From contig CACBWF010000001.1 in assembly GCA_902542925.1 (NCBI GenBank), positions 1 through 41,568 of the forward strand: 41,568 nt of DNA, read 5' to 3'. A program made the position numbers and the translations under genes. The notes beneath the pieces are model-generated. The model saw only the letters and a program-made list of their open reading frames with translations. It had not been told where the DNA came from and ran no database searches. Positions within the stretch are counted from its first letter, which is position 1. Every line of letters begins with the position of its first letter. This document shows positions 20,081 through 24,609 of the stretch, piece after piece. This DNA is from an uncultured Alphaproteobacteria bacterium (GTDB lineage: Bacteria; Pseudomonadota; Alphaproteobacteria; Methylaequorales; Methylaequoraceae).

Positions 20081-21388
20081 TTAAATATTTTTAAGTTCTG
20101 CATCAAGAATTGAATAAACATTTTCTAGAGTTTTATTGTCAATGCAGTATGGTGGCATCAAATATATCGTATTTCCAATTGGTCTTATCAAAAGACCTTT
20201 TTTTAGGAATTGTTCTCTTATTTTATTTCCTATTTTTGAGCCATACTTTTGATCCGCTCCAATTAAATCAAACGCTGCAATACTACCAATTAATCGAGTC
20301 TTAGAAACTTTTATGTTAGTTTTTAAAAAATCTAATCCCTTTTTGTGAATTTTTTCTATTTGAGAAACTTTGTTCAAAACATTGTTTTTTTCAAAAATTT
20401 TTAATGATGCTATGGCAACAGAACAGGCTAATGGATTTGCTGTAAACGAATGCCCATGCAAAAAGGTTTTCTTGAAATCTGTGTCAACAAATTCATTGTG
20501 AATACTTTCAGAAAAAATTGTTGCTGCAAGGGGAATGTATCCTGCTGTAAGAGATTTAGCTATACACACGATATCAGGCTTTGTAATAATATGCTCCATT
20601 GCAAACATTTTCCCTGTTCTACCAAATCCAGTCATTACCTCATCAAAAATAATTATTATATTTTTTTCTTTAAATCTCTTAAGTACTTTGTCAAGAAATA
20701 AAGGATCACATATTTTCATTCCTGATGCACCCTGAATGATAGGTTCAATAATAACTGCAGCAATTTCGTCCGGACTATCATTCAAAATTTCTTCAACAAA
20801 GTTCAATGATTCCTTTTCTTTTTCATACTTTTTATTGTCCCCTTCCCAAGTTTCAGGAAATGGGATAAAAGTGGTATCTAGAGTTAAATCTTTAAATGGT
20901 CCATAGAATCCACTTGAATATCCGACTGACATTGCTCCAAATGTATCCCCATGATACCCCCCCTTGAAGGCCAAAAATTTTGTTTTTCTTTTACCTCTAT
21001 TATACCAATATTGAATTGCAACTTTTAACGCAACCTCCACTGCTGTAGAACCATTATCGGAATAAAAAACTCTTGACAATTTATTTGGCAAAAGTGTAAT
21101 CAATTTTTCAGCAAGAGACGTTGCTGGTTCATGAGTAAATCCGGCAAATAATATTTGTTCAATTTTTTTTGCCTGTAAATTTAAATCTTTTATAATTTCT
21201 GCTCGGGCATGCCCATGAGTATTAACCCACCATGACGATATTAGATCAAGATATTCATTTCCATCAATGTCAAAAACTTTTTCATCTTTTCCTGAAACAA
21301 TTACAATTGGGTCTTCACAATTCTTTTTTTGCGTAAATGGATGCCAAATATGTTTTCTATCCAATTCTAAAATTTTCTTTTTCATCAT
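20081..21388 (-). CDS. bioA: Adenosylmethionine-8-amino-7-oxononanoate aminotransferase
   Basis: DRKHIWHPFTQ, LDLISSWWVNTHGHARAEI, GGYHGDTFGAMSVG, IIIFDEVMTGFGRTGKMFAMEH, LHGHSFTANPLAC. Confidence 0.97.
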   Translation of the reverse strand: MMKKKILELDRKHIWHPFTQKKNCEDPIVIVSGKDEKVFDIDGNEYLDLISSWWVNTHGHARAEIIKDLNLQAKKIEQILFAGFTHEPATSLAEKLITLLPNKLSRVFYSDNGSTAVEVALKVAIQYWYNRGKRKTKFLAFKGGYHGDTFGAMSVGYSSGFYGPFKDLTLDTTFIPFPETWEGDNKKYEKEKESLNFVEEILNDSPDEIAAVIIEPIIQGASGMKICDPLFLDKVLKRFKEKNIIIIFDEVMTGFGRTGKMFAMEHIITKPDIVCIAKSLTAGYIPLAATIFSESIHNEFVDTDFKKTFLHGHSFTANPLACSVAIASLKIFEKNNVLNKVSQIEKIHKKGLDFLKTNIKVSKTRLIGSIAAFDLIGADQKYGSKIGNKIREQFLKKGLLIRPIGNTIYLMPPYCIDNKTLENVYSILDAELKNI

Positions 21389-22038
21389 AGCTTTATCAAA
21401 CCTTCAAATCTTTTTATGGTTTCAAAATCTACTTTCTCTACTTTTGGCAAACATCCCAATACTATTTTTTTCTTTTTTGTATTATAAATATTTTTTACAA
21501 ATTCTTCGATTGTATTTATTACATCGCTTAAAATTTCGCCAGTAAAAATGATGCCCCTAAGATCTACATCTTTTTTAGTTATTTCAGAAATTGATAATAA
21601 CGTGTGATTGATAGTACCAAGTTTTGTTGAAGAAACCAATATCAATGGAAGAGAAAGTTTTTTTATTAAATCAATTATAAAATAATTATTATTAATAGGA
21701 ACTAATAATCCCCCTGCACCTTCAACTATTAAATTATTTTGCATATTCTTGTTTGGTAATTTTATGTCATTGATATTAATCGAAATTTTTTCTTTGTTTG
21801 CAGCAAGATTGGGAGAAATAGGGTACTTTAATAAATAACTTTCTTGATGTACTTTTACATTTCCATTTGTAATTCTTTTTACTACATCTGAATCGGTTTC
21901 ACCATTGTTATTGTACCCGCATTGAATGGGTTTCCAATATTCTCCATTAAGTTTATATGCTAAACAAGCAGAAACAACGGTTTTACCGATATTTGTATCT
22001 GTACCTGATACAAAAAAACCTGAATTATTTTCGTTCAT
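21385..22038 (-). CDS. bioD: Dethiobiotin synthetase
   Basis: FFVSGTDTNIGKTVVSACL P-loop, YWKPIQCG, IVEGAGGLLVPI. Confidence 0.95.
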   Translation of the reverse strand: MNENNSGFFVSGTDTNIGKTVVSACLAYKLNGEYWKPIQCGYNNNGETDSDVVKRITNGNVKVHQESYLLKYPISPNLAANKEKISININDIKLPNKNMQNNLIVEGAGGLLVPINNNYFIIDLIKKLSLPLILVSSTKLGTINHTLLSISEITKKDVDLRGIIFTGEILSDVINTIEEFVKNIYNTKKKKIVLGCLPKVEKVDFETIKRFEGLIKL

Positions 22039-22807
22039 TTATTAAGACTATAAAACATGAAATAAAATATGAAACACTAAATGTTTTTTTCAGATTTCTA
22101 AGAAAAAAAAAATTATTTTTAGAATTATTTAATTTTGCTCCAACACCTATAATTTTAAGTTTGTTCAAAAATTCAAATACATTAGAAAATTTTACAAAAT
22201 ATTCCATTTCTTCTGAAAAAATAGTTTTTTGAGTTTTTTTTATATATTTAAATAAAATTTCATGACTTGGTAATTGATTTAAATTAATTTTTTCAAGATC
22301 CTTGTTTTGAATTTCCTCTAATTGTTTGAAACTTTTGTTATTAGGGAAAGTGAAACCAAATATGGTTCCTGATTTTGCGGTATTAAAGATTTTATCTAGA
22401 ACCTTAAATATATTTGATGACCAATGAAGTGACATGTTAGATGTAATAAAATTACATCTTTCAAATGAATCTATCTTATCGAAATCCTTCTCAACAAAGT
22501 TTACCTTAGAATCATTTTTTAATCCGTTGATATTCAAGCTATTAAATTTTTGTCTTGCTTTATTTACCATTTTAGGTGAAATATCATATGATAATAAACT
22601 TTTAAAATCTAAATTTTCTAATAACATTTTTGTATATATTCCTGTGCCAGAGCCTAATTCAACAATATTAGGAATTGATTTTTTTCCAATTTTTTTTAAA
22701 ACATTTCTCATTAATAACTGCCCAGCTAAAATTTGAATATCTGCAAAGCAATCATATTTTTCTGCACCATTATTAAAAGAACTTAAAATTTTTTTTTTAT
22801 AATTCAT
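22025..22807 (-). CDS. bioC: Malonyl-ACP O-methyltransferase
   Basis: SAM-methyltransferase motif IVELGSGTGIYTKMLLE; FNNGAEKYDCFADIQ near the N-terminus; located in the bio cluster. Confidence 0.85.
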   Translation of the reverse strand: MNYKKKILSSFNNGAEKYDCFADIQILAGQLLMRNVLKKIGKKSIPNIVELGSGTGIYTKMLLENLDFKSLLSYDISPKMVNKARQKFNSLNINGLKNDSKVNFVEKDFDKIDSFERCNFITSNMSLHWSSNIFKVLDKIFNTAKSGTIFGFTFPNNKSFKQLEEIQNKDLEKINLNQLPSHEILFKYIKKTQKTIFSEEMEYFVKFSNVFEFLNKLKIIGVGAKLNNSKNNFFFLRNLKKTFSVSYFISCFIVLINERK

Positions 22808-23447
22808 TGTTCTGTTTTAAAAAATTAAGAATTATTTTTGAAGCTTTTTTTGGAAATTTATATGGAAAACCATGATCTCCATCAACAACCAAATCTCCGT
22901 CTAGTTTTTCTAAGTCTTTAATTTTGATAATTCTATCATCCTTGCAAAAAATATTTTGTTGTGGTGCTTTGTTTTTAAATTCGATTGTTGTTAAATTTTC
23001 ATCTCTTAATAAATGCAAAGAATCTATTAATAATTTGTTGTTCAATAATTTATTTGGTTTTTCAAACTGAACTCCTGAATTTTTAAAAAAATCATTTAAT
23101 ACATAACTAGGATCTAATTTAAACATTTTTATCATTCTATTAATTGATTTTCTTATATTATTTTTTTTAGAAAAGTAGCTAGCTGAACCACAAAAATTAA
23201 TTAAACCATCAAATGAATTAATATTTTTTAATAACCAGTTATAACCAAAAGAATGAGTGATGAAAAAATTTTTTTTATCTTCGCTTTCAGTAATACTTGG
23301 ATAATAAGGATTGCAATAAAAACCAAGATCGAAGGTAATTGTCTCAAAACGATCACCTATTTCATTATTTAAAATTTTCAATAATGGTTTCCAAAATTTA
23401 GAATTAAACCCCCAACCATGAATAAAGTATAGTTTTTTATTTTTCAA
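22797..23447 (-). CDS. Divergent alpha/beta hydrolase, putative pimeloyl-ACP methyl ester carboxylesterase (BioH-like role)
   Basis: IHGWGFNSKFWKPLL N-terminal motif, ITHSFGYNWLL nucleophile elbow, candidate catalytic Asp in CKDDRII and His in DGDHGFPY. Overlaps bioF and bioC by 11 bp each. Confidence 0.65.
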   Translation of the reverse strand: MKNKKLYFIHGWGFNSKFWKPLLKILNNEIGDRFETITFDLGFYCNPYYPSITESEDKKNFFITHSFGYNWLLKNINSFDGLINFCGSASYFSKKNNIRKSINRMIKMFKLDPSYVLNDFFKNSGVQFEKPNKLLNNKLLIDSLHLLRDENLTTIEFKNKAPQQNIFCKDDRIIKIKDLEKLDGDLVVDGDHGFPYKFPKKASKIILNFLKQNNEL

Positions 23448-24609
23448 TTGAATGTAATGCTTCTAAAAATTTTAAAATTATTTTTCTATTGATGTGGGAA
23501 GTTATGGTCAGTCTAATCCTTTCCTTCCCGTATGGAACTGTTGGAGTCATAATTGCTGATGTAAAAAATCCTTTTTTTAATAAAATATGACTAATTTTTT
23601 TATAGTCAGTTTTTTTTGTTTTTATCATTGGAATTATATTAGTTTTTGAGTCAAGTGTATCGTACCCTAGTTGATTTAACTTTTTTCTGAGAAAATTGGA
23701 ATTTTCAAGTAATTCTTTCCTTTTACATGATAATTGAGACATTATTTCGACCGCTTTGCTAATAGATCCTAATACATTTGGAGGTAATGCTGTGGTGTAA
23801 ATAAAACCTGAACAATAATTAATTAAATTTTTCGCTATTTTGGTTGAACAACAAATATATGAACCGTAGGAGCCAAAAGCCTTACTAAATGTACCAATGG
23901 AGATTTCTTTTTTATTTTTTTTGGATTCTAACTCAGTAATTCCAAAACCACTTTTACCTAAAACACCGGTGGCGTGGGCTTCATCAATATATAAATAACA
24001 ATTAAATTTTTCAGCTAAATTTCTTAGCGATTCAATGTCAACTACATCTCCATCCATACTAAAAACTGATTCTGAAATTATTAACTTATTTTTTATATTT
24101 TTGAATTTTAACAAAAAATATTCTAAGTGATTCATATCAAGATGATTGTACCTAACAGTTTTGAATCCTGAAATTTTACAACCAATATTAATACTTGCAT
24201 GATTTAGCTTATCACTAAAAATGATACACTCATCTGGCTTTCTTGAAAAGTTTCCAAGAATTGATGGAATTACCGAAATATTTAGCTGGTATCCACTGCT
24301 AAAGATCAAACAATTTTCTGCTTGGTAAAAAGATTTAATTTTTTTTTCAATTTTCTCAATTAAGTCTAAATTTCCAGAAACAAGTCTTGAGGATGATAGG
24401 CTAGTACCAAATTTCTCTGTCCATAAAATTGATTCTTTGATAAGTTTTGGATTATTAGACAATCCTAGATAATCATTACTAGAGAAATTGTAAACAAACT
24501 GGTTGTTGTATAATAATTTTCCATGCAAATTAAGATTTGATTGAGGAGTGCCCAGAGAAATTCTCTTTAATTTTCTATTTTTTTTATTATTTGAATTAAA
24601 TGTAAGCAC
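23437..24609 (-). CDS. bioF: 8-amino-7-oxononanoate synthase
   Basis: FSSNDYLGLSNNPKLI, SSSRLVSGNLDLIEKIE, YIDEAHATGVLGKSGFGI, TFSKAFGSYGSYICCS. Predicted GTG start. Confidence 0.95.
   Translation of the reverse strand: MLTFNSNNKKNRKLKRISLGTPQSNLNLHGKLLYNNQFVYNFSSNDYLGLSNNPKLIKESILWTEKFGTSLSSSRLVSGNLDLIEKIEKKIKSFYQAENCLIFSSGYQLNISVIPSILGNFSRKPDECIIFSDKLNHASINIGCKISGFKTVRYNHLDMNHLEYFLLKFKNIKNKLIISESVFSMDGDVVDIESLRNLAEKFNCYLYIDEAHATGVLGKSGFGITELESKKNKKEISIGTFSKAFGSYGSYICCSTKIAKNLINYCSGFIYTTALPPNVLGSISKAVEIMSQLSCKRKELLENSNFLRKKLNQLGYDTLDSKTNIIPMIKTKKTDYKKISHILLKKGFFTSAIMTPTVPYGKERIRLTITSHINRKIILKFLEALHSIEK

Follow-up and report, generated by a model that had tools for sequence, protein, structure and literature searches.

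The window analysed here (positions 1 to 41,568 of contig CACBWF010000001.1, assembly GCA_902542925.1) comes from an uncultured alphaproteobacterium of the family Methylaequoraceae and carries a biotin operon on the minus strand, in the order bioF, a gene for a candidate esterase, bioC, bioD and bioA. The esterase gene (22797..23447) encodes 216 amino acids (aa) from a TTG start and overlaps bioF (23437..24609) upstream and bioC (22025..22807) downstream by 11 bp each. A sequence-only reading of the window had described this open reading frame (ORF) with exactly these coordinates and overlaps; we add the strand and the TTG codon, which is the sole plausible in-frame start and is common to the sister species (genome G001). 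By eye, no clear Shine-Dalgarno sequence is visible upstream of the gene, and translational coupling within the operon is plausible. Compared with the G001 sequence, nucleotide identity is 89.6% and the ratio of nonsynonymous to synonymous substitution (dN/dS) is about 0.15, indicating that the gene is under purifying selection.

The motifs named in the earlier reading are all present in the candidate esterase: an HGWGF..FW N-terminus, FFITHSFGYNW, CKDDRII and DGDHGFPY. In an alignment of 29 members of its clade (defined below), His65, Ser66, Gly68 and Asp171 never vary, and His192 is missing only from L002, whose contig ends before that column. The putative nucleophile elbow THSFG (residues 64-68) is encoded at 23244..23258, the candidate catalytic acid Asp171 at 22935..22937 and the candidate base His192 at 22872..22874, all on the minus strand. 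An AlphaFold model (mean predicted local distance difference test score, pLDDT, 92.1; predicted template modelling score, pTM, 0.91) has the alpha/beta-hydrolase fold. In the model, Ser66 sits at the turn between strand 59-65 and helix 67-75, and Asp171 and His192 lie in loops after later strands. Together, alignment and model give the canonical Ser-Asp-His order, as had been proposed from the motifs, with the nucleophile at a strand-turn-helix elbow. At E <= 0.001, Foldseek gave 395 matches in the PDB, led by alpha/beta-hydrolase esterases, with BioH structures within the top 20.

The elbow had been called atypical, and Thr does stand in place of the first Gly of GxSxG. This is not peculiar to the gene. 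Thr or Val replaces that Gly in every member of the window's family (HIMB59-type marine Alphaproteobacteria) with a readable elbow. Orthologs from most other alphaproteobacterial families retain GHSxG; a small number of exceptions carry Ala (L054, L084) or Thr (L061). Precedents exist outside the clade: the BioG sequences compared have AWSMG or AWSFG, and the elbow of the lipase CalB is TWSQG (PMC4405274). Judged by these sequences, the Thr/Val elbow is a lineage trait of one family inside a larger GHSxG clade and not a sign of a new mechanism, since it is family-wide and has such precedents.

A search of the window's own and related genomes found orthologs in 30 of 145. At all 30 loci bioF adjoins the ortholog, with bioC and bioD following at most of them; because every one of these first-found loci adjoins bioF, placement in the bio locus is not due to chance. 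In a class-wide profile search, 39 of 385 genomes had a match to the clade, and among the 30 loci listed from it all but one (L085) lie beside bioF and/or bioC. The contig scan used alignment A2 (alignment A1 was too diverse). The phage records encode no relative. In genome G136, the esterase and BioC are a single 510-aa ORF (L040:3074-4606, minus strand), flanked by bioF on one side and by bioD and bioA on the other. This arrangement recalls the BioG-BioC and BioH-BioC types of fusion, of which the BioG-BioC protein of Bacteroides fragilis has been shown to be functional (PMC3494674). Unlike those, the esterase part in G136 belongs to the clade described here, not to BioG, and in the window the two genes are separate.

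The biotin genes of Azospirillum argentinense run bioF, hydrolase (WP_137117976.1), BioC-BioD fusion, bioA and bioB. The annotated bioD on its plasmid p3 (L132:4630-6039) is the fusion, with TIGR02072 matching residues 13-256 and bioD running from 265, so the label bioD hides the methyltransferase; in genome G056 the BioC frame is of comparable length (470 aa). Long open frames in the GC-rich L026 and L063 were considered as fusions and rejected; in L063 the bioF match is in another frame. In genome G016 (L033:1273-2680; 74% complete) bioC-bioD is kept with no adjoining bioF or esterase, and bioB was not found, possibly reflecting an assembly gap or the loss of the pathway from one genus. An esterase gene with an AHSFG elbow also lies between bioF and bioC on a contig titled Candidatus Melainabacteria (L054:2988-3702) and joins the window family in a quick tree; either mis-binning or gene transfer would account for it. 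In genome G140, from a different alphaproteobacterial family, another hydrolase with a GWSLGG elbow lies between bioF and bioC (L035:2368-3081). It was rejected as a clade member, having no match to the clade profile and 63 bits to TIGR01738, and appears to be another solution; the bioF-bioC slot has therefore been refilled at least once.

To place the protein among known esterases, we compared it and its clade with curated family models. As a single sequence, the window protein misses the models for BioH (TIGR01738), BioG (PF04301) and BioV (NF033854), and a PDB search with it gave chance matches only. Across the 29 members, the BioH model is matched by 10 (best E 9e-21), with all of them under the cut-off; PF04301 matches none, although the same model finds matches in four other genomes of the phylum; and NF033854 is matched weakly by two (best 6e-5). 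No BioH above the curated TIGR01738 cut-off was found in the 145 relatives, and no BioG in the 60 relatives searched. With the clade profile, the PDB search placed four BioH structures on top (E 4e-13 to 2e-9; next match 9e-8). Profile-profile comparison ranked BioH (1.6e-8) ahead of generic hydrolases (4e-6) and BioG (0.24) for the window family, and in the same order for the GHSxG members (3e-30, 5e-23 and 1.6e-8). In a maximum-likelihood tree these proteins form a clade of their own (support 99/96), which joins BioH and BioG to the exclusion of generic hydrolases (100/99). Its position beside BioG (92/95) is not decisive, the BioG branch being long, and a tree constrained to hold the clade and BioH together is not rejected (approximately unbiased test, p-AU 0.24). 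The deep branching order is uncertain because many rows are composition-biased and the BioG branch is long. On sequence grounds, this is an unnamed alphaproteobacterial clade that appears separate from BioH and BioG and is filed under neither, which agrees with the earlier suggestion of a distinct or very divergent member.

In the BioC-dependent route to biotin, malonyl-acyl carrier protein (malonyl-ACP) is methylated by BioC and lengthened by the fatty-acid enzymes, and BioF can act only once an esterase has taken the methyl group off (PMC3494674). The window gene very probably encodes this gatekeeper, a pimeloyl-ACP methyl ester esterase, as the sequence-only reading had supposed; we infer both its substrate and its activity. 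By homology, the window BioC would cap malonyl-ACP with a methyl group, and two rounds of fatty acid synthesis would elongate the capped molecule, as in the established pathway. The candidate serine esterase would then take off the methyl group by way of Ser66-His192-Asp171, which would stop elongation and release pimeloyl-ACP for BioF, whose gene lies directly upstream. This role best explains the operon position together with the conserved triad in an alpha/beta-hydrolase model. It is also favored because BioH structures are the best matches of the clade profile in the PDB, and because the relatives searched have no BioH or BioG over the curated cut-off. The clade is linked to bioC and bioF in relatives' genomes where these searches found no other known isozyme. 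The G136 fusion, the presence of bioB in most members of the window's family and the purifying selection lend further support; in the incomplete window genome itself, bioB was not found.

Several observations weigh against this assignment. The window protein scores 18 bits to the BioH model, whose curated cut-off is 206.95, and a Pfam scan of it gave no match. In the PDB search, the window-family profile by itself reaches BioH at E 0.24 only, so homology is shown by way of the GHSxG orthologs. One clade member sits outside any biotin cluster (L085:1453-2154, genome G163): it has a GYSLG elbow and no bio genes nearby, and lies between a Cox11-like gene and a long ORF rich in repeats. The window genome also encodes, away from the operon, a generic hydrolase (L031) that reaches 30.9 bits against the BioH model and could act as a helper esterase. 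At a completeness of about 54%, that genome gives no proof that a second esterase is absent.

The same function could belong to a diverged, shortened BioH, orthologous to the Escherichia coli enzyme and not a separate clade. We regard this as a serious possibility, though short of probable: BioH is the nearest family in both profile searches and the constrained tree stands, but every member falls under the BioH cut-off, the clade has its own support and lies, though not decisively, beside BioG rather than within BioH, and the window protein has about 216 aa, against about 250-260 aa for BioH (about 35-40 aa shorter). A different proposal, that the gene encodes a hydrolase for some other substrate, simply carried along with the biotin genes, while a promiscuous esterase such as L031 removes the methyl ester, is improbable. 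Alpha/beta-hydrolases are promiscuous, a thaumarchaeal esterase is reported to complement bioH (PMC6138646), and L031 has its own similarity to BioH. Linkage to bioF and bioC across many alphaproteobacterial families and the natural BioC fusion in G136 speak against such passive travel; they tie the candidate to the methyl-removal step.

The elbow might also be taken as the mark of an inactive or decaying esterase, given the missing first Gly and the strong sequence divergence. We consider this highly unlikely and reject Thr as a sign of a dead enzyme: dN/dS is low, the Ser, Asp and His are kept across the family, and Thr or Ala occupies the same place in active enzymes (CalB and the BioG family). 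A methyl-ester esterase of the BioC route remains our preferred assignment for the window gene.

The flanking genes were identified by their top NCBIfam models, BioF (TIGR00858, E 1e-112, 376 bits) and BioC (TIGR02072, E 8e-32, 111 bits), each under its curated cut-off (426 and 185, respectively). The genes bioD (21385..22038) and bioA (20081..21388), both on the minus strand, were assigned from matches to PF13500 AAA_26 (E 7e-48) and PF00202 Aminotran_3 (E 4e-100) together with operon position.

Compared with the known isozymes, the window protein shares with BioH (TIGR01738; structures 1m33, 4nmw, 4etw and 6k5e) the fold, the Ser-Asp-His order and the BioC partner, and differs in having THSFG where BioH has GWSLG, as well as in length and in its place in the tree. 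It resembles BioG in size (about 215 aa) and in the replacement of the first elbow Gly, and the gene for BioG precedes bioC in other bacteria (PMC3494674); unlike BioG, it has no PF04301 match, and its family reaches BioG at E 0.24 only in profile-profile comparison. With BioV it would share the proposed role. BioZ likewise provides pimeloyl-ACP in Alphaproteobacteria, and according to a 2020 study this class lacks the known pimelate genes and relies on BioZ (PMC7645780). BioZ is a ketoacyl-ACP synthase whose route avoids both BioC and BioH, whereas the window operon has BioC and a hydrolase. Searches of the literature on biotin in HIMB59/AEGEAN-169 and on bioH in Azospirillum found no paper devoted to the gene and no experimental work on it. 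Public annotation calls the clade proteins, including the Azospirillum argentinense hydrolase, merely "alpha/beta hydrolase". We judge the novelty to be moderate: the functional kind is known, and the clade is one of its branches, well defined but unnamed, that includes a natural variant of the elbow.

BioC-type operons that include an esterase of this clade are found across many families of Alphaproteobacteria, among them uncultured marine ones of the HIMB59 type. If the assignment is correct, it would account for a step of vitamin B7 synthesis that has been missing in these Alphaproteobacteria, extend the range of BioH replacements by a branch and give a name to genes that now lack a specific one. 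The Thr/Val elbow is a ready-made natural series in which to probe how strict the GxSxG rule is.
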